Assembly: GCF_964204645.1 (NCBI RefSeq)
Contig: NC_134025.1
Location: 7,011,001 to 7,075,000, forward strand
Length of the DNA stretch: 64,000 bases
Direction: 5' to 3'
Origin: Tubulanus polymorphus
Taxonomy: Eukaryota > Nemertea > Palaeonemertea > Tubulaniformes > Tubulanidae
A model generated the notes under the pieces. That model was not told where the DNA came from. It searched no databases and saw nothing but the letters and a program-made list of their open reading frames with translations. This document shows positions 1-53,357 of the stretch, in pieces. Made by a program: the position numbers and the translations under genes. The stretch's first letter is position 1. Every line of letters starts with the position of its first letter.

Positions 1-3000
1 TGCTTACGAATGAATTGCAAAACATTTTTGGGGATACCTGGGTAAGATATCGTCATCTGGCAATATTGTAGAATCGTAGATAATTTTTGATAAAACCCGA
101 AAAATTCAGATGCTCATCTATATTCGATTCAGATGCGAGTCTTAAGAACCATGATCGGACCGCCTTCTTCCTTGAATTTGCGGAATGTATACTGGCACGG
201 ATTTGTAGTTCCCGGTCAGATAAAAAAACAGTGAGGATGATTCTATGGAATTTTGTAATCAATACATTCGATTCATTTTTTGCATAAATAATCCTAGTAC
301 CGGTATATAGATGAGAGTTTGTTTCTCACTCAAAACGTTTTTCAGGTATACTTATTTCATATTGCTGATGACGGCAACTCTTGGAAAAAAGTTGGCGGCG
401 AAGGGTGTATCAGTGTCGTCTCATAGGCCATTTACCACATTCCCGGCATTAACCAATTTAGAAATAATCGGTAATATATAATTATACTTTCAACTGTGAA
501 TTCGCTGCATCTGCGACTGATGCTTTTGAAAAGAGAATTATCTTCATATTTCAGAAATCGACATTCGCAATTCCAAAATGCTGGAACTGTTGATAGAAGA
601 AACTACATTTATTTCGAACTATATGAGACCAGTTTGGATTTCAGCCATACGGGCTCTTAACAATAACAGGTGTGGTTCGTGCATCTAGGCCCTGAAATTT
701 TACATATTCCGATCACAGACTATCATACGTAGGTTTACCTATCTTTCTAGAAGTGGAGATGCGATTATTCTGCTCCTAACGCAACTGGAACACTGTTTGA
801 GGAGTGTTTTTGCAAAAATAAATAATTGTGAAGGACGAGTTCTAACAGCAGAGGTATATATAAAATGAAAAGTAAGAAAAAATAATGCGAAGGGGGCACC
901 CGGACTTGAACCAGGGACCTCTCGATCTGCAGTCGAATGCTCTACCACTGAGCTATACCCCCGTTACATACCGTTGCGCGCAGCTATACTCGCTATATAA
1001 CTGGTTTATGGATAATAATCAATACTATTGAGTGGGAAACGCACCGTGTATGAATGCATATGTGTTTATATCGCTTCTGATTATAGTCCAAATTTATGCA
1101 AAGTTTACACTTAAACTCAAAAAGCATCTTTCTTTTTTTTAGTCAGCCGAATTTTACACAACATTTGCTGAGGTAAGAATAAGAAATGAAGAAATTCTTT
1201 TTCACGGAATCCGGCGTGCGTGCGTCGTTATTGTTTTAACGAGCAAAATTCTCTTATGAAGATCGAACTAATCGTATTAAAGTAGAATTATTTGTTAACT
1301 GTTTTAATAGATTTTGAACATAGATTTGCCGAATGGTGACAATAATCATTTACATTCTGCATTAGGAATATCATTTTTGGTAAGGTACATTCTTTCATAT
1401 TCGATTTTAGAAATTCGTGTTGCGGTCGAGATATCTGTTAAAAACATTTTTGTCCATCGGTTTTTAGGATATGTTATACGATCTGCTGGTTTATCCGGAA
1501 GGTTTGCGACTACGTGATCAAATAAGTCACGGTGAAGTAAATCTAAACGCCATCAGCGAACGGATGGTCAGTTTCGTATTCGCGACGTGTGTTGCGTTTT
1601 GTTCTAAATGGCTGCCACCGTCGGCTTTGTCTTGGAAGGCACGTAAATTTCAGACGTTAGCGAAACAGAACCATTGAAGAAGCAGGATACGGATGGATTT
1701 GATTGATCTTTCGATTTTTCAGGAACCATCTGTTCGTCAGATTTATCAATGGGCTGAAAACTATGAAACTCATTTTCATCCAGTGACAATTGCAAAGTAC
1801 CAGGTGATAGCGCGTAGATAGTTTGTATAATGTAGATTCTGCTACAATATGTAAGTAAACAATTTTGGTTTTTTTAATAGATCACTAGCATTTCAAAAGA
1901 ACTTTCGTCTTGGTTAGAACTTCCTCGACCGAGTAAAAGTGATATGTAAGCTAATCGGCGTCGTTTTGATTCTGAGTTCAATATTTAAATCGCTGGCTAA
2001 AGAGAAAAATTCACGGCAGAATTATTTCAGATTATTCGATATTGACTGGACGCTAACAGACTGGAGTCATCATGCTCGTTTGAATTCGCTTTGTGAACGG
2101 ACTGCCAGTATAAGTGGTTCCAATCTAAATGATCACTCAGTGTAAATATACTTAATCGCTTCTCATTCTTGTGTCTCTATAAACAATTTCATTGCAGAAA
2201 TCATTTAATTTCTAGACCTTTCCAACCGTTCGGCAAGTTCGATTTGCCCGTGACTGATTTGGCTATTCTCCGTTCGTACCATTCAAGTGGTAAAACGATA
2301 ATTGACGACGATGTCCATGTACATGTAGTAAGGTTTTGCCACCTTAAAACTTCATATTTGTTAGTTGCCATCCACAACGCTGTTACATCTGAATATTTCA
2401 TTTTAGGCGACTTCTCATGTTGACGGGTTGTCGTCAACTGCTATGATCAACCAAGCTAATTTGATACTGCGTCAATGTACACGCGTTTGTAACAATGTAA
2501 AATCGGCTGTCCAAATGCGCTTTGATCAGTTCAAAAGGAGAGAACTGCGATCAAGACAGAGAAAAACCTACGCTCGGATGTTAGACAGGTACGGTACGCT
2601 TTATTTGATCGTATATTTATGTAGCGAAAAGATAAACCTTGGAGTCACCGTTCGATATTTTTCCAGTATTACTTTCATATCCATTGGTTTGAAACTGGTC
2701 ATGATTCATACATTTCAAATCATCAAAAATGCCAGCTCGGGTTCATACAGAACACTGCCACACGAACGTATTCTAAGGTTAGGATTTTGTATCAAAATCG
2801 ACCGGAACCTCTCAATGTATTATATACCATTAATTGTTAATTGCTCGTATGTCTTATTACTACAGGTTAGCTAAACATATTCTCAAATACAGTGAGAATA
2901 TCGCCAGTCATACGAATGTAGAGAAAAATCGCTGGGAAGAAGCCGTTATACTAACTGAATCATTATTAGAATATCTTATTGTTGTTATGCAAAACACATC

Positions 3001-3686: not shown

Positions 3687-6593
3687 ATGCCCGAGGTTTC
3701 GATTCAAACCAATGATGATGTGGTGGTCGTGGCGAAACCTCGTCCCGCCGGTAAACCAAAACCTGGAACTATAACTATAGAACTGCCTGCATGGATATTA
3801 TGGGGGCTAGCGGTGCTGGTAGGGGTGGTTGCTGTTGTGTCTGGATGTTTTTGGACGATGTCCAGATATGGGCCGTTTATTTTGGCGCCCGCCGATGTGA
3901 TGGATGACGTCGGAATTGATGGCGTGATGATTTTCCGCAAACACGACCGCGATGACGACGGTGTATTGACTTTAGAAGAATTTGAACCGATTGTTCATCG
4001 ACTACGTGATTTAAACGTAAGTTATCAGTTGAATTCTATCTGTTCACACATTAGCAACCCGTCAGTGGTTTAGTTTCACGATTGGATATTTTCACAAACC
4101 ACTAATAGACCCCTCAGTCTGATATCAAGCCGTTGTTCCCAAAAAGTGAACATTATCTAGTATTCAGACTTTAGGCCCATGATGGTATAAGTCCGACTGA
4201 TTATAAAAGCTTAGCAACGATTAACTAATCAGAGTGGTACCTGCTTAAATCAGAGATTTGAATATAATGATTAAGTATTAGAAACAAAAGATTTCCAAGA
4301 CTTAATATGTTTTTTTAGGAAACAGTCCAATACATCCAGGATATAAAACAGTACGATGAAATACTTACCATAGAAACTGCGTTTATGCCATTCGTTTTAT
4401 CCAGCATGAATAAGAATATGAATGAGCTGGTAAGTATTTATATTATATACCTATTCAGTTCACATTTAAGTTCTATCTGGTAGCGGAATCGTTCCAGCTT
4501 GTATAAAATTTTATTTTCAGTTTGCTGGTACCCTAGACTCATTGTACGGCTTGAAAACGTGGAAAACTGTTAGTGCACCGTGGAAGAACTACGCAGCCCG
4601 ACATTTCTCCGTGTTTATGCCATCGGAAAAAGACTTGACGAACTTGGGCAAAGTTTATAAGATCTACGAATTTAACCCCGGTCCCGACGAGCCGTCGTTC
4701 ATCTCGAGTAATCGCTATTATCCACCGACTGTCGAAAGACGACTGGTCACAATTCATCAGCTGTTAGCCATGTTTCATCCGAGGCCGTTCGTTTACGCGC
4801 GGTTTCAACCACAAGGAGCATACGCATGTGTACGAGCGTACAACGAATTCTTCATAGATATAGAATTTAGGTAGGCAACTAATGTCTATTTCAACTTTGC
4901 TTGAGAAGGCATCAGGTGGCCTAGCTCTGTCAGTTTTAGTAGTACATACCTGATATTGGTCCTAAGAACCAGCAAAGATGGGCATTTGAACTAAAACATC
5001 AATTTTTGATCCATTTTATGCTGCATCGAAGCAAAGTTGAAATAGAAATTAGACAAAAATTGTTAGCAAGCCCAAGTAACTCCTTTTAAGTTTTATGAAT
5101 GACTTTATGCTGTGATATACTGAATTGGAAAACCACTATTTATGTGCAGAATTTGCTTTATTTCTGTTCTTTTTGTTTAGAATACATGCTGAGTTTCAGC
5201 TAAATGAACCACCGTTTTATCCATTTTGGTTCACACCAGCTCAATTCATGGGAAATTTGATCATCAGTAGAGATGGAAAACATGTTGTATATTTCCACAT
5301 GTTTGTTCCCAACGATCGGAAACTCAATGTTGGTGAGTAATGAAGTTTACATTAAAACCATAACAACTATACAGTAAAGCTGATGTAATGATGAAAAATA
5401 TCTGCATTTATTGTTTATGAGTAGACTTTTAAAAAGAATTTCATGAGGGGTTTTAAGTGTAACTGAATGCGCTAACTTTGAACTAATTTAAGACTTGGAG
5501 TGGTTAAACCCTAGAGAATCTGATGCTGATGATCAGAATATGGAAGTCGATATTGGTTTAATCCCGTTGATGGAATTACGATCTACTGACGAATCGCGAT
5601 TCGCTGCCAATAATAGCAAAGGGCAAGATCTACACCTAACGTTCAACAATCGCGATCCAGAACATGTAACAAAAGCTAAGTCTCAACAGTGGCTGGAAGA
5701 GATTGCAGTTGAAAGAGCTAGAAAACACATTGAAATTAGATTTTATCCTTTTAAAAGGGTAAGTTCAGTAGCTAACTCAACAATTGCCATAAATCAAATG
5801 GACTTTTCTCTTAAGTCTTCGATCCCCGGCTACTAAATTCAGCATCTTAGGATGGTGGTTCATTTGTTAAGTAATAAAGCAATTTCCATTTAGGTGCCTT
5901 ATTATAATTTCACGGATGCCTTTAGCAGAGGAGAAATCGAAAAAAAGCCAATACATTCCATACTGCTGTGGGGTGCATTGGATGATCAGAGCTGCTGAGG
6001 TTCAGGGCGGACTCTTCGGGAGACATCTCTCGAGAGCCCGCCCGTTATGTCTTTTCTCAAGGACAAGATGATTAGCACCTGGTCACTGGTAGCTGACGTA
6101 AAAGTAAGTATAAAAAAAGTTCACACGATATTTTGAATTCAAATGAACAGTTATCATTGATGATTAGTTATCATGTAATAGATCATTAAAATCTTTGTTT
6201 TACAGGATGAACATCGATTAAGATCCTAATTCTTATTTTTACAGGAAATTGAGAAAGATCTAACTCGACCAAAGGATGCAATTAGAGCTCAACTGCACAT
6301 GAAAAGCTATGTGTTTCCAGTTATGATGATCGTTGCATTGCCGAATGGTACCGTTATAAACGCACTGAATGCTAATGAATTTATGGATAAAGGTGATAAA
6401 CTTTCCGAAAAAGAAGTCGGGTGAGTTGAGAAAATTGTTTGAAAATCACGAGACCATAAAACTTGTACAAAACTAGAAAAATCATCTGAAATTTTTCTAT
6501 TTCAGGTTTGATATCCCGAATAATGTTTTATATCTAGACTTTCTGAGAGATTCCTACAAAATATTTGAAGACGAATATAAGCATACACTATAG
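3687..6593 (+). CDS. SELENON: Selenoprotein N (SELENON/SEPN1), complete, Sec at in-frame UGA
   Basis: ER/SR membrane selenoprotein that senses luminal calcium and regulates SERCA by redox chemistry. Eight exons: 3687-4016, 4319-4429, 4521-4870, 5181-5332, 5493-5758, 5894-6103, 6245-6420 and 6506-6593. All phases close, giving 560 residues. There is one N-terminal membrane helix (about residues 33-56, [16 protein letters not shown]) with the bulk luminal. An EF-hand (about 86-98, [13 protein letters not shown]) follows, then the SelN core with [16 protein letters not shown]. The redox site is S-C-U-G with U=TGA at 5996-5998 (Sec438), within [18 protein letters not shown], which matches my memory of the vertebrate site. 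After it comes the thioredoxin-like tail with STWSLV and [17 protein letters not shown] 3687 is chosen because the frame upstream begins only at TTG. A naive gene caller would truncate the protein at Cys437. An acceptor at 6205 in the last-but-one intron gives a stop, so 6244 is used. Confidence 0.95.
5996..5998 (+). other. SELENON: UGA selenocysteine codon
   Basis: TGA lies in frame inside the exon 5894-6103, between Ser-Cys and Gly-Ser-Gly of the SCUG redox motif. Coding similarity continues without interruption for more than 120 residues after it, so it is recoded rather than a terminator. Confidence 0.94.
5999..6043 (+). promoter_or_regulatory. Stem-loop downstream of the UGA, SRE-like (Sec redefinition element)
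   Basis: Six bases after the UGA a hairpin begins. GGGCGG (6005-6010) pairs with CCGCCC (6038-6043). After an A-C mismatch, CTCT (6012-6015) pairs with AGAG (6033-6036), and CG (6017-6018) pairs with CG (6031-6032) across a bulged T. An approximately 12-nt loop remains. SELENON is the classic gene with such an element promoting UGA readthrough, and its spacing in vertebrates is similar. Pairing was done by eye; no folding energy was calculated. Confidence 0.75.
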
Positions 6594-6756: not shown

Positions 6757-7064
6757 CAGTCAACTCTTTGTTATCCAAATTCCATATTGGCCATCCACCA
6801 CATAATTTTCAGAGTACAATTGATGAATATTTTAGATAATATAGTAGAACAAACTTCTCACTACTTTTTGTAAAAGACAGAGTTCAATAAAACAGTTCAT
6901 GTGTTCATAGAAAATGGCTTAATGATGTAATAATACATTTTGAGAGGTCATTTCGAGTGTCTTGAAGAAAATGGAAATTTCTTAGATTCATTTTATCCGT
7001 CACCCTCGATAATCCACCAAAATTGCAGAGGTCCTGATAGTGGTGGATGACAAGGAGTTGACTG
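6757..7064. mobile_element. Short TA-flanked MITE, pogo/Tigger-like termini
   Basis: The left end starts CAGTCAACTCTTTGTTATCC and the right end, reverse-complemented, starts CAGTCAACTCCTTGTCATCC. The termini are therefore inverted repeats of about 20-25 bp with two differences. Both are flanked by TA (6755-6756 and 7065-7066), the target duplication of Tc1/mariner and pogo elements. Length is 308 bp with no ORF, so it is non-autonomous. It lies in the SELENON 3'UTR between the stop codon and the SECIS element. Confidence 0.8.
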
Positions 7065-7592
7065 TAACTCATAATGTAATAATATTCATGAGATTCATTA
7101 TCGTATATACACTGTACTTAGATAGATTTTATAAGTTGCAAGCATATCAGTATCTTGTACCGGTGTAGCCTAGAGAAATTCAATGCAATAGCATATCACA
7201 TTTGAATCAAAATTTTCTTTCTGTTTTATCAAATTAATCAATCATTACTGCTACATTGCACAATTTATTGAATAGTATAATCATGTTTAAGAGTTATTGA
7301 ATGGTTTCATGTGATTTCAATTATTTTTTGCTACCAAACCACTGATAGATTTACATCGAATGTTACTGTTTGATAAAGAGTGATACATGTTGTAGGGTTT
7401 ATCAGCAACAGATGTTAATTTTATAGGAAATTTACATGATATACATAATCGTTTATTCTTTAAAAGCCTTTTTAGAAAATAATGTATACAGTGTACACTA
7501 AAAACACTACTGCTTTGTGATTCAAAGTACATGTACAGGTACTAGCTGTACTAGTCAGTAGTCTTCATTGCGTTAACATTGGGAGGCAGTTA

Positions 7593-7700
7593 TATGAACT
7601 ATCATTCTCAATTTTTGTGTATGACGTCTTTTCACCTAAAGTACATTCATGTACAGGCTAAAGACTGATGGCTTAACAAGAGATAGAATGATGGTTCATA
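7593..7700 (+). promoter_or_regulatory. SECIS element, form 2, of SELENON
   Basis: RNA hairpin that recruits SBP2 and directs Sec insertion. Helix I: TATGAAC (7593-7599) and ATCATTCT (7601-7608) pair with AGAATGAT (7685-7692) and GTTCATA (7694-7700). The quartet strands are ATGA (7621-7624) and TGAT (7666-7669). Helix II: GTCTTT (7626-7631) with AAAGAC (7660-7665), then CCT (7635-7637) with AGG (7655-7657). Unpaired AAA (7638-7640) supplies the conserved adenosines. A mini-helix GTACA/TGTAC (7641-7645 and 7650-7654) with loop TTCA makes it form 2. The quartet-to-AA distance of 13 nt fits the family. It starts 1 kb after the SELENON stop on the same strand. Confidence 0.92.
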
Positions 7701-7705
7701 ATAAA
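7700..7705 (+). promoter_or_regulatory. poly(A) signal for SELENON
   Basis: AATAAA starts at the last base of the SECIS outer helix. A second AATAAA lies near 8045. Use of the first would place the SECIS at the very 3' end of the mRNA. Hexamer evidence only. Confidence 0.45.
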
Positions 7706-10209
7706 CGCTTCTGAAATTTATTGTCTATAGACAATTAACTCCTTGTATCATTCCCAAGTCATTCCTCTTTCCAGGTGCTTCTAGTCACTGTAGCTCCATA
7801 ATTCCCCTCATGACAAAATTGGTCTGTGATTTATAAACTATTTGGAATAATCAGCAGGGGATCTGAGAGAAGCTTTTATTTCTTGAAGGGTCTATGATTG
7901 AAGCTTAAAATTAACTTTATTCAATAGGTATTTAGACCACATTCATGATTTTGCTGATTTTAACATGTAATGTCTTGCCTATTTGCTGCTAACTCTGCAG
8001 CGGTTTTATTTTGAGAATAGATCTGTAAACTGAAGATAAATGAGCAATAAATATACTCTACTTTTACAATATATGTATACTTTTGCTTGTTGAACACTTC
8101 ATAACTGGTTCAAACTCCACTTGATTGAGATCGAAACATCTTTTCCTAAATTGACCGAGTGGATTATAGTCGCCAGTATCGGACTTAAGGCTAAGTTCTG
8201 ACATAACTGTGATTTCAGTGATTACTGTGTGATTTCAGTCTGGGTGATACATACAATGGACTTCTAGACGATTCTTTAAGTGTAAAAGCAGTTTTTGCCA
8301 AATTTTAAATCCTTTTCCTATATACACTGAATTGTATGTCATTGATATGCATTATTAACTTTGAGAAAAAGATGAATATATAGTCATTCCATTATAAATG
8401 ATTTCACTAAACAGGAGGTCCATCAGCCACTTGACATGCACAAGAAGACAGCAAGGAAACATTTTTGTTAAAATATAGAATGTAATTATATTATCTGAAA
8501 ATAGGATCACAGAGAAAAAATATCAACAAGAATTCAAATTAAACAGCATAAATACATATGATGGTACATATCTCTTATGAGATAAGAAAAAAATAATCAT
8601 GATAGTCTTTTATTGAGAAAAATAGATCATATGCATTAACATATGAAAATTACATTCAGGAAAAAAATTGTTAATCTAAAAAATAAGTAGTTTGTACAAG
8701 TATTTCCAGCCTTACTTATGGTTTCTCATGAATAACTAATGTAAAATGACTAGATTAATATCGAAATGCTAGGAAAGCAAAATAATGAAACATCTATAAT
8801 AATCACAAAATTCATAAAAACTGAACTACAAGTTCTCACAAACAGGTAACACATTAGTCCATCCAATGAAAAGTTTCAAACCTGAGAAAGAAATTATGAC
8901 AGAAGCCTGGCAAGGCTGATAGGCTATCCGCTGTGTCATATCACCTCAACACATTTTTGAATCGAGTTAGTGAATTTCAACAACGTCATTTATTAACAAT
9001 GAAACTCGAAAACAAATGTTTATTGATAAGACATTTTTCATCAATTTTAGATTACACTGTTAATTCATCAGGAAATGCAATGACATTCAAGGCATACATA
9101 CATACATTATCTGTACTCATTATCACAACACCCAAATGATAATCTTCATGGAATTTGACATCTAAAATGGAATTTGGGAAAAGCACATTTGCTCTATAAG
9201 TAAACATTGATGAGGCTTGCACAGACTTGGTTTTTGTTATAGATAAATACAGTTAATTCAGTCAACCCTCACTGAAAACATGGGAATTTTTGAAGCCATA
9301 TGTACACAAATAAATTTGAAATGGGAGGTATCTTGATAGTAATTCCTCACATTTTATCATTAACTCGCAGACATAAAGAGACCCAGCTTTGATAACATTC
9401 ACTACCCACAAATTGCTACAATCAATAGAAATAGCTAGTAACGACAGAAAACACTTAAAGAGTACCAATATCATGGAATGATTGTAATAATGTTTCTTTA
9501 AATCACTTTCTAAACAGTTTCCAGCCAAAGAATTACTGTAAAGTATTCTATTCAAATATTATTTTCATTGCCGATATAAAATACATGTATCACTAATGAT
9601 ATATCTACCAGTTTTTATGTATTTCATCTTTTAAACCTATTAGATAAAACAAATTCAAGAATTTTTGAACATTTAAAATTCTTGCATACCAAATAAGGTA
9701 TCTATGTACGCTATCTCAACTGACCGAATAACCCTATATACATCGGAAGCATTGCTTAGGAGAGAAGAGAGCACCAGTTTAAATCTTGCCCCACACTTGA
9801 CAACAAACAACATGAGAATATTTCAGAAGGCTTTTAGTTTACATTCCCTGTTACATACAAATGCTTGTTTAGTTAGTTGTTGGCTTACATACATCCATAA
9901 CTCCATATGTTTATTTTTATCAAAAAGATAGGTGATCAAAAACTAGAATTTTCATCATACAAAATTCTTCTTATCATCCATTCTTTTTGGAGAGCAAAGA
10001 ATTGTCTCTACATTAAAATCATTTACCGTCCATCTATGCCAGAAACAGTACTAGTATCTAAAGTAACTACTGTGTATCAGAAAAATTGAATAATAAAATA
10101 ACCTTAAATTGCTGTTGCAAATGAAACAACATTAATATAATATATCCTTTTACATTATCGCTGATGAAATATCGATGAAACCCATTGACTAGTTCATAAT
10201 GATGATTTG
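7706..10209. other. AT-rich region between convergent SELENON and DDHD1 3' ends
   Basis: No coding frame with plausible splice sites or similarity is seen. On the minus strand AATAAA hexamers (TTTATT on plus) near 8606, 8987, 9009 and 9910 could end DDHD1 transcripts. The region therefore probably consists of the two 3'UTRs plus a short spacer. No inverted-repeat element was recognised. Confidence 0.5.
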
Positions 10210-13200: not shown

Positions 13201-15498
13201 CAAAATGACCTGCAATCGCTTCCAATCGGCTGGAGCTGTATTTTAAGAGGGATTTTGTTGATATCCATACCTCTGATCTATAAAGTGGACTTGTGTAATA
13301 TAATATATCCATGGCACTGCTGTTCAGAATGGTTCTAAGGCCTCTCACTTTGGTTGGTGTAATGGAGTCAACAGTATCTGCAGGAAAAATTGTTAATACA
13401 ATGCCTTGTGATTGAAGGACAACCAATATTTGGAACAATAATTTGAATAAGAATTTGAATTATCACTACAAAAAATTAACGAAGATATGCAGATATCATG
13501 AAACGCATCAGCGTGCAGTGCAATAGACTAAATATACCATTGATGTGCATTCTTAGTACCAGTATGTACGTTAGTAATTTGACAAATAAAGCATATACAT
13601 CATTTAGTCAAATAAAATTCTTATTAGTAGCTTATTACAACTGTAAAGCTATAGACTACCTATTTTTTCAAATAAAAAGAACTACCTATTTTTTTTTCAA
13701 ATAAAAAGAATAAGGCACACATGAAGAATATAATAACATGTTTCCATGCTTGATTTGGTTAAGGCCATACCTTCTGGCCCACAAATATCGTGTTCAGAAC
13801 CATCAATTAATCCTGAAATTATTCATGAATAAATTCCCAGTATATATTTCATCAGATATGTATTGAACGAGCATCAAAATCTTTGAGAAATGTTTGAAAA
13901 GGCAGTAATTGAGTGAATATTATCTTTAGAAACACCATGAGAGATCATATCAGTTTTTCTGGTATCTGACTATCTGGTATCTGATGTCTTCTGACAATAA
14001 TTTCTTTGAAGAGAAGTTATGAATAAAGGAATATCAATTGCACACACTCACCGCCGTCTAATTTCAAGGATGATCTCCATTCAACAGGAAGGTATTCTGC
14101 TCGCTGATTGTCGGAGTCAAGGTCTGGAAAATACTTGGAACGCAGTTTATTCACATTAGCTCTGAGACTATAAACAAAGAATGAAAAAAAAGACAGTTAT
14201 AATCAATTCAAACTGGGATATGAAATATTTCCACTCTTAAACATGTAGAATACTACATGTACGATCAGCTATTCAGTTTTGGTTTAACCTTTTTGGAAAA
14301 ATTGAACAATTTCCGATAAGGGAAAGCCACAAAAATGGTAGGTACTGTACACTTACTCCTTACAGCTTCTGATAATACTGCCAGTTTCCATTTTCTGTCC
14401 AATTCCATGGATGACGAATACTAAATGAGTGATATCAGCAGGTTTATCATCAGGTCTCGCCTCCATGTAATATCCTCGATACAATCGTGTTCCACCTTTA
14501 AATAATAACGATACTTAAGCATAATATAAGTTGAAGACAACGACAAACTCTTCCCGACTGAGAAATGATGAGTCTTTTTACCAGCGCTTTTTTGTATTCC
14601 TAATCGATGACCAACTGATCGGACCAGTCTCGAGGACGTTGCTTCACTAAACATGTATATTTCATTGACTGCGTACCAATCAACATGGAATTCTTTGAAC
14701 TTCATATGATGAATAACTGAATTCATACAAAAATAAGCGTTCAAAATTGCAACTTTAATGCAGTTCATGCACTAAAAATTCCAAGGGTAAGCTTGTATTT
14801 ATCTACCTTTTTTCTGCCCTTTTTGTGGCGCAACTGGATTTTCTGTTTGAAATTTCTGATGTTCGAAATTAGATAAATGCTCCGTTTCAATTTGGGCGGC
14901 ATATCCCTCTTCCAACGGTTGCCACGTGCCATCAATAAACCAACAAGCCCTCATTATGGTCGCTGTTTGATTAACAGCTAAAAAACAAAATACAATGCAT
15001 ATATTTAAGAACAAACCGGGTCAAGTAAGATACTTTTTCAATGTTATCTGCAATACCTGTCCAATAAATAGGATAGCACTTATTGCTAACGACATCAACT
15101 TCGTAAAGTCCACCACGAACTACGATCATTTCGATATTATCTTCATGTTTGCCGCCGGTACCAAAATGTAGTTCTCGATACTTGCATTCGATACGCAAAG
15201 AATCGTAACCGATAAACGGTGTCCATTTTTTCGCGCCGTCCTCTTTATAAAACCAGCGTATTTCCTCAGGACCGAGGGCTTCGACGGTATCCGTTACAGG
15301 GTACAGATAACGCCGAAGGTTAGCCATACTAGAGGGTGTATCACCAGGACGTGAAGAAACATCGCTGATCTCAGAGCTTGCCTCGTCCATATAGATGTCG
15401 TCATCGGGAAAATCCGACTCGCTTAATGGATCGCCGAATTGATCCATATCTGAAGATGATATCCTGACCCTTGCATCCCCAAAAGAACTAGGAAACAT
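10210..15498 (-). CDS. DDHD1: DDHD1, phosphatidic-acid-preferring phospholipase A1
   Basis: Cytosolic PLA1 acting on phosphatidic acid and phosphatidylinositol. Exons in gene order: 15057-15498, 14807-14962, 14582-14716, 14357-14495, 14052-14167, 13771-13812, 13271-13377, 12986-13174, 12796-12863, 12627-12702, 11938-12087, 11435-11651, 10933-10980, 10457-10618 and 10210-10364 (TGA). Phases all close, giving 733 residues (744 with an optional 33-nt exon at 11060-11092). The N-terminal part has EEIRWFYKED and FIGYDSLRIE, then CWFIDGTWQPLEE, HVDWYAVNEIY and the lipase oxyanion strand VFVIHGIGQ. The nucleophile elbow is A-H-S-L-G (exon 12986) in place of G-x-S-x-G. The C-terminal DDHD domain covers ENFFCLGSPLAVFLALRG through TSHTAYW. 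There is no SAM or WWE domain, which separates it from DDHD2 and SEC23IP. A splice acceptor directly before ATG 15498 suggests a 5'UTR exon upstream. Confidence 0.93.
11060..11092 (-). other. DDHD1: Possible 33-nt microexon of DDHD1
   Basis: Between exons 12 and 13 a 33-nt stretch has a good acceptor (CTCAG) and donor (GTAGTT). It has the same 1-1 phase as its neighbours and an open frame (roughly T-LEDMAYLSIL-G). It would insert 11 residues into the variable linker before the end of the DDHD domain. I recall no equivalent in the human protein. Confidence 0.4.
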
Positions 15499-16993
15499 TT
15501 CTGCAATGTAAACATTATGATAATGGATATTTCAATGGATATCTTACTGCAATACTGTAGAGCGCTCATTATGCTTCATATCTTACCATCAATCGAAACA
15601 TTAACTCCAAGCCTAATCTTTCAACTTATTGATGTCAATGTACAGATGATAGAAAAACATAAATTGGCGCTTGCAGTCAGGGTAGTCATTAGACTTCTGA
15701 ATGTTGTAATAATGATTAAACATACAAACACATTAAGAAGTATATGACTGTTAAAGTAGAGGCAACCTGATTCAAATGGTCTTGAATCAGAATGAATAAT
15801 TTTCAGTGGCGTTGGAAGTGCAGCGACTGCAGTGGCGAAAGCCGCGGCAATAATTTAGTGAATGACGTTTTTTTTCTTTGAATACCACGTTTTCAGTGAA
15901 GAAATTAGGTCAATTCGAGGCGGCAAAATTAAGAACCTGTCCAAAATCGGCATTTGGCCGCAGCAATAAAACATTGCTTCCAACGCGCCTGATTTTTGAT
16001 ACGTAATAGTCAATGATTGACAGGTATTAGTTAGTAATTCATTGATGATGAACTGAACGGACGCGTCTGGGCCATCGTCCGTACAGTATGCGAAGCCAAA
16101 TGACAAATTCTATACGCTTAAAATATCTTATCGAAGATACATGCCATCATTATCGCGCGTAGTAAAATAAAGCTTCAATCCAAGTACGGTGATTACATTA
16201 CCTTGTTCAAATAGGATACTTTCAAGGCAAATAAATAAAGGCGAACAAATGTCAAATTAAGGATCGATTAAGATCCACTTTCTAGACGCAATCGCGAGAG
16301 TTGAATACAACTTTCAGACGTACAGCTACCGAAAAATATTTCTTCGCTTCATGTATTTGATGCATACCGGTATGTGCAGCTGATTGTCGGACGCCGGCCG
16401 GTTGGTACCAACAATACGAAATATTAAGTCCATGCCTTAACTATTTAGTCATTTTTTCCATGCATTTGAATTTTCTTTTGGTGATTAAAAACTTAAGAAA
16501 TATCGAATCTCAATTAGCCCTCAAGGATAAGTCTTTGAAGACATATGTAGTCACAGGACAATCGCTGCACTAGTTTTATTTCGATTTAAAAATCAATTAA
16601 CAATTACATGATGTGAGTAAATTGATAACAATATTTAAAGAATTTATGAAAAATAAATGTCATCTTCAAGAACAATAACATCACTGAATGTAAAAATCCA
16701 AATAATCCCTAGCAATCTCGGTTTTAATCTTATTATCTATTCTCCACATCCGAGTGTGGCTTACTACTACCGGTATCCAATAATTGCACATTATGACTAG
16801 CTCTGAATGGTGCTCATTATGCTATTAGTTACATTAAATCATTCCTCCATATTTCACAAGGAAATGCGCAAGGGCAAAAATACTGCAGTTGTGTTCAAAA
16901 AATCATAATACTGATACATAGGAATACTGAGTAATTGGGAAATCACAGGTCTTAACAAAGGCATTCATCCTAGCTTGATTTGGAAACATTATA
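15499..16993. other. Spacer between DDHD1 start and carrier 3' end
   Basis: It should contain the DDHD1 promoter and a noncoding first exon. An alanine-rich frame near 15807-15855 was seen but lacks support. A minus-strand AATAAA at 16575-16580 probably marks the 3' end of the carrier gene. Nothing else recognised. Confidence 0.45.
16575..16580 (-). promoter_or_regulatory. poly(A) signal for the SLC25 gene
   Basis: TTTATT on the plus strand is AATAAA on the gene strand, about 410 bases after the stop codon. Hexamer evidence only. Confidence 0.4.
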
Positions 16994-18258
16994 TTATGTT
17001 GACCAGTGGAGAGTTCGCGCTTCAAAGTAGTCCATCGTTTTTTTATAAAAAAGAAATGTTATGGCATTAGTTGGAATGGCACGCAGTGCTACAGAAATTC
17101 CACCACGCATGAAAACTTTTAAGCCATCTTCCTTGTAGCTTTTTTGCACGCAATCGATGAAGCCTTTATATCGGATGTTGTGAATATCACTCTGAACACG
17201 GCTCTTAATGGTGTCAAATGGCAAACAAAACAACCAAGAAACCACTCCAGAAATCCCACCACCAACGAGGCCACCCATTATGCCTGAACTGTCGGAAAAG
17301 TGATGCTCATCTACCAAGTGATTCAGCCATTCATAGACAAATATGTAAACACCATAGGTAGGCACATCTCTCATAGCTTGAATATGAAATCCTCTAAAAA
17401 ATCCGCGTAATCCATGCTCGCGGTACAAATTAGCAATACATTCCCGCGGTCCCTTGAAGTAATCCATCTTTCCCACAACACTTGGTGATCCTAAAACACA
17501 ATAAGAATGATATGATATGATTTATTTTCTCCACAAAATATGAATGAGGTAAATATAGTGGGAATCCAAAAATCTATCAATGGCTAATTAGAATTATAAT
17601 CATAACCTTTAATTTGTGCTTGTAATGTCACTTTAATGACATCGCTTGGGCAACCCACAACCAATTGAGAAGCTCCAGCAACTGACCCCGCAAGAAAGAT
17701 GTCTGAATAAGAAGCACTCTTGTGGCCTCGGAGCTCAGTGAATTTACGTAATGTGTTGCCATACACTCCAAAATATATTGTATTGATGAGAAAACCATTG
17801 CCAACCAGTGGGAAACTTAAACCACGCATAAATCCTGATTTCTGAAAAAGTTGCGTTATTTTGAAAGAAATTTAATCAGTTTATCTAAATATGATGAAAA
17901 TTAACCTGAATAAAGCTTATACTTATAAAGAGAACTTACAACACCAGCCCTCCAAACAGTCTTAATGCAGCCCCAGTTCCCAACATGCTTGTGAGTTTGC
18001 AACTGCACCTATAATATTAAAATAAACACATTTAACCTCTGGCTGCCAATACTATATAAATCATTCCAAGCCGAACCTGAAACACTTACTTTCACTGTGT
18101 CAAATGGATGTCCCACAATTATTCCAGCTGTGCCTGCAGAGGTGTAAAAGCGGAGATATGCCACAATTTTGGAAATAAAGCATATTTGGACTAGTGATTT
18201 GAAAAGCCTTACCTCCAATTGCACCAGCAATGTAATCGTGCAGTAAATTATTCGACAT
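16994..18258 (-). CDS. Mitochondrial carrier of the SLC25A45/47/48 group
   Basis: Inner-membrane mitochondrial transporter; substrate not deducible here. Five exons: 18213-18258, 18090-18133, 17940-18008, 17607-17841 and 16994-17490 (TAA). All phases close, giving 296 residues, the usual carrier length. Three tandem repeats each carry the Px[DE]xx[KR] signature: PFDTVK (about residues 25-30), PSDVIK and PFDTIK. Each is followed by a matrix helix and a GFFRG- or FMRG-like turn. The GLSFPLVGNGFLINTIYFGV segment and the ending RYKGFIDCVQKSYKEDGLKV are closest to what I remember of SLC25A48, with SLC25A45 and A47 as alternatives. ATG 18258 follows an untranslated leader; an ORF running through introns upstream of 18133 is not coding. 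The gene is divergent to the MSK gene, with 835 bases between the two start codons. Confidence 0.88.
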
Positions 18259-33245: not shown

Positions 33246-34051
33246 ATGAATTCAATTGAACAGCAATTAAGAGAATACAGAGCCAGGAAATCGAAAGAGA
33301 AATTCTCGGCAAATCATAATGTGGGAAATTTGATATCAAGATCAATAAGCCTGGTGAGCTAAAAACTGCAAAAAGCCACCAAAACTTATTTAGGCCTAGA
33401 GGCACAGGGTCAGGGACCTGACACAATGATTTTGACCCCAGTATCCTAGGTACTGTATATAAAAAGACTTTTTATATAGGCCTATAGTACCTAGGATACT
33501 GGGGTCAAAATCTTTTTGTGTCAAGTCCCTGTGGCCTTAGGAGCAAAAGTTTGAAAGGAAAATGATGATGATTGAGTTTTTTTAAACGTACATTTACATG
33601 AATTTATTAGTTTTTAATAATTTTTCTATTGCAGGTGAGATCCCAGTCACAAACACAGGATAAAGCAGCTAAAGAATGCAATGATGAAGAGGATGAATTT
33701 ACTTGCTCAAGTCCTCCACTTACTGGAGTTGGAAACACTATTGGTACTCCTCAAATCAGTGACAATCAAATTTCCAGATTCATTGACCGGCACCCTTACA
33801 CTCCTTTGATTTTGAAAACTTTACTCTGGTTGATGCTGTGGTTACTTTTCATCAGTTTAGAATTCGGTGCAGTCTACTTCGTTGTCTCGAGTTTGTTTGT
33901 GATCTATAGAACTATGCGAACAAAACCTCGGTCTCCTGGTGAACTGAGTGCATATTCTGTATTCAATCCTAATTGTGAACGTCTCGAAGGAACATTTACT
34001 GCTGAACAGTTTGAAAAAGAATTGCGTTATGGTGCTGGTTCCGTTCATTGA
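33246..34051 (+). CDS. SAYSD1: SAYSD1 (SAYSvFN domain-containing protein 1)
   Basis: Small ER-membrane protein reported to sense stalled, UFMylated ribosomes at the translocon. Two exons, 33246-33353 and 33635-34051 (TGA), join in phase 0 to give 174 residues, close to the human length. The first exon encodes an amphipathic start (MNSIEQQLREYRARKSKEKF) like the human EQRLAEFRA start. The second contains a hydrophobic hairpin (LILKTLLWLMLWLLFISLEF, then AVYFVVSSLFVIY). It then has the family signature SAYSVFNPNCERLEGTFTAE and QFEKELRYG. The intron holds a long hairpin repeat. The 3' end converges on COG2. Confidence 0.96.
33392..33541. repeat. 150-bp near-perfect hairpin in the SAYSD1 intron
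   Basis: A 27-bp perfect arm (33428-33454) is complementary to 33486-33512. An inner perfect arm 33456-33466 pairs with 33468-33478. An outer arm 33409-33420 pairs with 33519-33530 with one mismatch. TAGGCCTA occurs at the outer left edge and inside the right arm. The structure resembles a foldback MITE or a small-RNA precursor. Confidence 0.8.
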
Positions 34052-50414: not shown

Positions 50415-53357
50415 TTAGGCCGCTTTGTGCCGGCCACCACAGCAGCCACATGCAACACCACAACGATGGCATGCCGTTAGTGGCCAATAGCACCACAGAC
50501 AGGGAACGATAAAGGACAATATAGTCAGTGCTGTCCATTTCTTACAGTTTGATTCGTCCGAAGAGTCGCATACACAAGGATGTCCATAGTCACCGTCGGC
50601 ATCAGCCATGCAGTGATACAGCATAGCTCGCGCACAGCATATGCATGATACGCGTTCAATAACGTCGTGCATCTTATCCGGCGCGTCTTCGCATAATCCA
50701 CGAGACGTTTCAGACGACACTGAAAACATTTTCTGACAGTACGCGCAGCGCGCGTGCTTTTTCGTCAAAAGGTACTTCGATTGTTTGTCGGCTTTATGGT
50801 GTTTACTGTCCTTATCCTTACGCGGCCTTGGCTTTCTGAGTGGCAATGGAGGATGTAGAGTCTCTATTTGTGTTTTCTTTATTGAACTACTACTGTCCCG
50901 CCGCGAAGCGGGTTTAGTGATCGAGTCCATGGAAGGATAGCTGTAGTCATTGTTAGATGATGGCCGAGTTTTAGTGTCAAATGTCACATAGCAATCGGTC
51001 GCCCGATTATCGATTTCATCTGATTGGGTTTTATCTGATGATTTTGGCCACATATTATCCTCCTTACTTTCGCTACTAATTGATTTGCCGTTTTCACTGC
51101 TCGGTGATTGTTTCATCACATTTGTAGAGTTCCGATTGGGCGTAAATGTTATCCAGTGTAGATGGGGTGGACGAGAGATAAATGGTCCGTAAGGTTCCTG
51201 CATAACTCCATGAATCGAAACAGCAGGCGATTGCGGTGTTGGTGAACTTGTCGTCGTACTGGTTGTACTATTCGACTGGCTACTCGAATCCTTCCTACCT
51301 AGAGGCAAATCCAACTGCTGCAAAATAAAAGAACGAAAAACTTCTTAAGTGATTTATCTTCAAAAGTTATTATCAAGAGATACCGGTACCCCCTAAAATG
51401 TCTTTCAAAATCATATGAAAATGTCTTTTGAGGGATTAATGAATTTGCCTGGAAATCATAAGTGCACATTAACATCTGGATAAAAACTGTAGCAATAACA
51501 GCGATAGATCTCAAAATCTTTGAAATGGTTCCTGGGAGAAAGACAACTAGATAATATCAATAATTATGTAGGGCAATAACAATGCTTAGAATAGTAACCC
51601 CTGCTTATCACAGCTAGTCATTCAGTTCAATTCTTGGCAACATAAATGAATGGTTACACAATCTAATCATATATCATCATTGAAAAAATGGTTTGAAAGC
51701 TTAATACCTAATGTTTTTGAAGCAAATGTTTTTTCTTATTCTGCTGCAATATACTTACCACAAAAACATCATCCTCTCCTTCTCCCATATCGAGGTCTGG
51801 CTGTTGACTCGATTCAGGCGATCCTATAAAATATATATATTTAAAAAAAATATTAGATATGAATGCAGGTTGAACCTGAAAGCATAGGGAGGGAAAGGGG
51901 TTAATTACCGATCTGGCATTGCTGACTATGTTAGGCACACTACAAACAAAAATATCTAGAACAAGACTACTGATATATATCTATGACCTCAATATAGGAA
52001 GATAGTGTCAGCCACATGTTGACGTTTTTATGCAACTTTTTGTCTGTCAAATCGTTGGCTGTGCCAACATTCTGGAAGTCACGGTTAGCTCCACCAGTCA
52101 TTGGCCTTATCACTTCCATCACAAACAAGTCATCAAAATCAATGCATGTGCATACTGTTTAGATGACGTGCAACCGAGCATTTCATGCATGACTGAAAAT
52201 CATTTCATTTTCCAAGCTGCAGATGATACTCTACAGGTAATGATTGTTGATGCAATGCAACTGTTGTTAATCCATCTTCTATTTAGAATAACAGGTGCCA
52301 TTATGTTCTGACAACAAGTCTTTTTTTCTGGGATGAGGAAACCATTTTTATACTGGGGTGGGGAACAGATGTAGCACATATTAATCGAGAATACAAAAAG
52401 GCATAGGTTCTAAGTTTAAGGGCACGAACAGCTCATTAGAGGAATTCCCTTGGGATTCCTTCTCTATTTGGAATCTCCAGGGATTCCCCACATTGGCATC
52501 ACAATCAAACAATTACAATGTATGTGTTACGTTATAAATTTTGTGAGTTTTTGCTTGCTTTAGAGTTTGCAATAGAGTAGTGATATAAATGTTTCCGAAC
52601 TAGTAAAACAAAAGGCTATACTAGGTAACAACGCAGTTATCATGGTTACACTTAGCGTCACCTAAGTTTCTGCCTTGTTCGCACTAAAACGATTCTATAA
52701 GGATCAAGTCATTAGGTTAATAAAAAATTCAATAAAAAGATTGGACGAAATTGACATAAGATATCTATATGCACATAACGCAGGAGTTAATGCACATGGT
52801 GAACTAGGTTGACTGCGACTGAATGGGAATGGAACAAGCCACCACTGTTCAATAAGTACACCAATATGAAATCAGATCATCACCAGCACGCATTCATTCA
52901 TTCATTCATTCATCAGTAGTTGCTGCAGCAATGACACAATGAAGGTTATATCTTCGGTAGCGTTAGCATGTATACAGTTTATACATATGAAAACCACACA
53001 GCACCGACGCGATATAAAATGACAACATACTGGCTCCCAAGCGCTGGCATCATCTATACACATACTCCAACACGGCCACCACCATGTACATTTTCTTATT
53101 ACAGTTCAAAGCTAGCTGAACGGATGGATATTGATCGACGGGCGATGCGTGGGTGGATGGTATGATATCCAAGCGCTGTAGCTAGCCACCAAGAAGGCTG
53201 AGCCTACCCAGCTAGCTCACAGGATAGACTATCAATGAATATTCAATCATCCACCGTTCATAATAATTATCTTCTTAGAGCCAGCATTGGCCTACTTGCA
53301 TATTTTATGCGAGATGATGTGATGTTGATCAGGAAAGGGAGTGTATTGATGTTGGTT

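Follow-up and report, generated by a model that had tools for sequence, protein, structure and literature searches.

The window analyzed here, a 64-kb stretch of DNA, contains on its plus strand a gene, SELENON, for which an 8-exon model was assembled in which the borders are GT-AG and the phases agree. The model comprises 560 codons and is interrupted by a single internal stop, a UGA. The coding features are as follows.

3687-4016, plus strand: exon 1, with the ATG, a hydrophobic, putative membrane-span segment and most of an EF-hand-like stretch (in-frame splice model)
4319-4429, plus strand: exon 2 (splice model; phases match the paralogue)
4521-4870, plus strand: exon 3 (splice model; conserved in the paralogue)
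5181-5332, plus strand: exon 4 (splice model; conserved in the paralogue)
5493-5758, plus strand: exon 5 (splice model; conserved in the paralogue)
5894-6103, plus strand: exon 6, containing the UGA (splice model; a 17-residue stretch is identical in the paralogue)
5996-5998, plus strand: in-frame UGA, codon 438, within SCUG; proposed selenocysteine codon (aligns with the UGA of the paralogue)
6005-6043, plus strand: selenocysteine redefinition element (SRE) stem-loop, 6 nt past the UGA (fold, z -4.5)
6245-6420, plus strand: exon 7 (splice model)
6506-6593, plus strand: coding part of exon 8, terminating in TAG (splice model)

An N-terminal hydrophobic stretch at approximately residues 34 to 56 was identified by eye, and residues 82 to 102 gave a weak EF-hand match (E 0.0009) that was below the Pfam cut-off. 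No SELENON-named match was obtained from Pfam, NCBIfam or PDB sequences, these being libraries without a SELENON model; the name of the gene therefore rests on the SCUG, EF-hand-like and hydrophobic features and on likeness to the human protein. No relative of the protein was found in a search of prokaryotes. SelN has been described as carrying a SCUG motif, an EF-hand and a single membrane span (PMC12839072), and a redefinition element has been reported for SELENON (PMC8704476), which the stem at 6005-6043 matches. Located just past the UGA, this stem would disfavor termination and aid decoding. Recognition of these features enables correct annotation, as a pipeline reading the UGA as a stop would truncate the protein at codon 437.

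A search of the genome with the SELENON protein detected, on contig 2, a further SELENON gene that has diverged from the first and for which a model was built without the first exon.

G000:C2:24857500-24866500, minus strand: second SELENON gene (L043), with an in-frame UGA, an SRE stem and a weaker form-2 SECIS candidate

The UGAs of the two genes were aligned with each other, the first four intron phases were common to both, and the proteins were identical at 158 of 398 aligned residues before the UGA and at 45 of 118 after it. That the protein stays conserved past the UGA in both genes, although they have diverged, is, at the level of sequence, direct evidence that both UGAs would be read through. 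An intron interrupts the paralogue one base past the UGA codon, and in the predicted spliced mRNA the SRE stem is re-formed (z -2.4). The paralogue has a form-2 candidate of its own in the 3'UTR, 283 nt past the stop. It reads AUGA...AAAA...mini-helix...GGAA above a long basal helix, scored 15.5 bits with the Rfam model, had a fold z of -2.1 to -2.9 and was followed after 166 nt by an AATAAA. It is a weaker element than that of the window, with a helix II that contains mismatches and a quartet whose 3' half is unusual; its identity as a SECIS is only probable. A survey of six invertebrates listed SelN once in each of five and none in Trichoplax (PMC3473315), and hence the presence of two SELENON genes is a less usual point of this genome. 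With a UGA and an SRE in each, these two genes of one invertebrate provide a natural comparison of the RNA features that are required.

The predicted 3'UTR of the SELENON gene in the window contains a repeat, two AATAAA hexamers and a long hairpin with the landmarks of a SECIS.

6757-7064, no strand assigned: MITE-like repeat (terminal inverted repeats, flanked by TA at each end)
6886-6891, plus strand: AATAAA within the MITE-like repeat, possible early poly(A) signal (hexamer)
7593-7700, plus strand: whole SECIS hairpin (fold, Rfam match, pair list)
7593-7608, plus strand: 5' strand of the long basal helix (16 bp with 7685-7700, of which one is G.U)
7621-7624, plus strand: AUGA, 5' half of the quartet (in register with SECIS_1; SECIS scan)
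7638-7640, plus strand: apical AAA, unpaired (fold, Rfam alignment)
7641-7654, plus strand: 5-bp mini-helix with a UUCA loop, which marks form 2 (pair list)
7666-7669, plus strand: UGAU, 3' half of the quartet (in register with SECIS_1; SECIS scan)
7685-7700, plus strand: 3' strand of the same basal helix (pair list of the fold)
7700-7705, plus strand: likely poly(A) signal, an AATAAA whose first A is the final base of the hairpin (hexamer)

The repeat, which is pogo-like, lies between the stop codon and the SECIS, has terminal inverted repeats of the form CAGTCAACTC.../...GAGTTGACTG and had 27 further matches in the genome. The SECIS itself is located 1.4 kb past the UGA at 5996 in spliced order and approximately 1 kb past the SELENON stop.

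A minimum-free-energy fold of 7570-7720 and its pair list placed bases 7593 to 7700 in a single hairpin. The outer helix (7593-7608/7685-7700) consists of 16 contiguous pairs, with one G.U at 7600-7693 and zero mismatches, rather than the 15 bp with one mismatch of the original prediction. A small internal loop separates this helix from 7 further pairs (7612-7618/7676-7682, including one terminal U.G) that lead up to the quartet of non-Watson-Crick pairs. Helix II is formed by 6 bp (7626-7631/7660-7665), a 3x2 internal loop and 3 bp (7635-7637/7655-7657), and the mini-helix pairs 7641-7645 with 7650-7654 around the UUCA loop at 7646-7649. The quartet, a helix II of 6+3 bp, the unpaired AAA and the 5-bp mini-helix with its TTCA loop had all been predicted, and all were seen in the fold and pair list. 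Together, these landmarks have the topology of a form-2 SECIS. The check that had been proposed, an Infernal search with the SECIS model, produced a match of the right topology but with a score under the curated Rfam value: SECIS_1 (RF00031) was the best Rfam match of 7450-7800, at 22 bits and E 0.063 over 4227 families and 351 bp, or E ~1.5e-5 for SECIS_1 alone (0.063 divided by 4227 families), and its alignment placed the quartet and AAA in register. The gathering cut-off of 35 bits is a database threshold and not a defining part of SECIS structure. As a yardstick, the SECIS located downstream of a GPx gene with an in-frame TGA in the same genome scored 30.9 bits, likewise below this cut-off.

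None of 200 dinucleotide shuffles equaled the stability of the hairpin, nor did any of 1000 in a second run (z -5.3), and the complementarity of its flanks exceeded that of 1000/1000 shuffles, which preserved base composition only. In a home-made SECIS scan of both strands of the 64-kb window, 7621-7669 ranked first. Equally strong cores are expected ~0.2 to 0.35 times per shuffled 64-kb strand; as strength of this order can arise by chance, the core by itself is not compelling, and it is the long stem, the location 1 kb beyond the stop codon of a gene with an internal UGA and the gene context that carry weight. A SECIS_1 profile search of the whole genome was uninformative, with no match among the 150 of 6569 candidates that were scored and none in the control genomes.

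The hairpin shares with eukaryotic form-2 SECIS elements (RF00031, SECIS_1) the AUGA/UGAU quartet, helix II, the apical AAA, the mini-helix and the 3'UTR position. It differs from SECIS_1 in its score below the curated cut-off, in the splitting of helix II by the 3x2 loop and in an unusually long and stable basal helix, which extends 16 bp beyond inner helix I. Human SELENON (SEPN1) likewise carries its SECIS in the 3'UTR and has a stem-loop directly downstream of the UGA (PMC8704476, PMC12839072). The human SelN SECIS is listed as form 1 (PMC3328465, PMC9076623), whereas the SECIS described here is of form 2; this is the expected form, as no form 1 SECIS has been identified in invertebrates (PMC3328465), and the difference from the human gene fits that reported absence. 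As is predicted for the SELENON gene of the window, the single SelN genes listed for Amphimedon, Nematostella, Lottia, Capitella and Branchiostoma are selenocysteine containing, and their SECIS elements are mostly AUGA_AA, with GUGA_AA in the sponge (PMC3473315).

The original prediction had also spoken of a full selenocysteine system. The window holds the mRNA part alone, and this claim was upheld for the genome only after tRNA-Sec and the enzymes had been found. Two tRNA-Sec genes with a UCA anticodon were present, together with exon matches for SPS, SEPSECS and PSTK and a match for an SBP2-type RNA-binding domain. For EEFSEC, the best exon match fell within an open frame 500 codons long on C5, with a model that also matches other translation factors. 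Downstream of an Rdx-family match (L049), two near-identical strong form-2 SECIS candidates were observed ~3 kb apart (1146-1197 and 4214-4265), each followed after ~113 nt by an AATAAA; these probably belong to a tandem pair of SelW/SelT-like genes. Given the tRNA-Sec genes, the machinery matches and the Rdx SECIS candidates, the genome is that of a selenocysteine user. No convincing SECIS was detected within the stretches examined at a second GPx locus (L046) and at the SPS locus (L047); a 24.6-bit SECIS_1 match in the former was rejected, being on the other strand.

Very probably, the hairpin is a eukaryotic SECIS of form 2 that serves an invertebrate SELENON gene from its 3'UTR, and the predicted form-2 SECIS with an upstream in-frame UGA was borne out by the structure, the model match, the gene model, the paralogue and the selenocysteine machinery. 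The element is real and an ordinary representative of a well-known kind. The analysis itself showed the structure and its location, the UGA flanked on either side by conserved protein, the stem of the SRE and the machinery matches. As a SECIS, the hairpin would be the signal that lets the cell read the SELENON UGA as selenocysteine; protein binding, decoding of the UGA and the presence of the SECIS in mature transcripts are to be expected from established knowledge of such elements.

It is very improbable that the hairpin is a chance structure or the relic of a palindromic repeat that happens to resemble a SECIS, with the true SECIS, if any, elsewhere in the 3'UTR. The frequency with which cores of this quality are expected in shuffled strands, the Rfam score below the cut-off and the MITE-like repeat in the same 3'UTR would suit such an origin, but the hairpin is far more stable than its shuffles and no other SECIS candidate was detected in a scan of the SELENON 3'UTR. 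Furthermore, within the reach of the genome search the stretch is single copy, and is therefore not a palindromic repeat. A microRNA precursor could account for the length of the hairpin and for two weak matches to microRNA-precursor families over the same bases; these matches, however, scored 15 to 17 bits against cut-offs of 117 to 140, with E values of 2.7 to 4.4, which is the chance level, and the SECIS landmarks would be left unexplained, making this origin exceedingly improbable.

A further possibility concerns the gene rather than the SECIS, which could be intact in a gene that is decaying or seldom expressed at full length. The AATAAA at 6886, carried by the repeat between the stop and the SECIS, could yield transcripts without the SECIS, and were most transcripts to end there, the protein would be cut at codon 437; the second SELENON gene could then cover the function. 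The mere presence of a hexamer, however, says little about whether it is used, and either the AATAAA at 6886 or that at 7700 may be the one that is. The frame, the splice sites, the SRE and the SECIS are all intact, while an undecoded gene would tend to lose them, and a decaying or seldom full-length gene is quite improbable. The reading of the hairpin as a form-2 SECIS of SELENON could also be extended to its long basal helix. Shuffles reached the observed flank complementarity in 0/1000 cases for the SELENON SECIS, 5/1000 for the paralogue, 553/1000 for GPx and 48 and 64/1000 for the Rdx candidates, again with only base composition preserved. It is conceivable, if unlikely, that in this lineage the helix is a SELENON-specific extension which does more than recruit SBP2 and which is kept, with different sequences, in both diverged genes and is absent at GPx; it might then act, for example, in 3'-end definition or in control by a double-strand-binding protein.

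Several other features were observed in the window. Genes encoding a WWE domain (14971-15531, minus strand), a mitochondrial carrier (16994-17521, minus strand), a SAYSvFN domain (33611-34051, plus strand) and a Sprouty domain (50415-51344, minus strand) were present, as was a tRNA gene (891-962, minus strand; 68 bits) whose anticodon, read from the alignment, was GCA (Cys). Other places in the window gave microRNA-like Rfam matches too, and these, like those over the SECIS, were put down to chance or repeats. A long, near-perfect inverted repeat at 33411-33531 had a weak Rfam plant-microRNA score (36.6 bits; cut-off, 72) and is more likely to be a palindromic mobile element than a microRNA.
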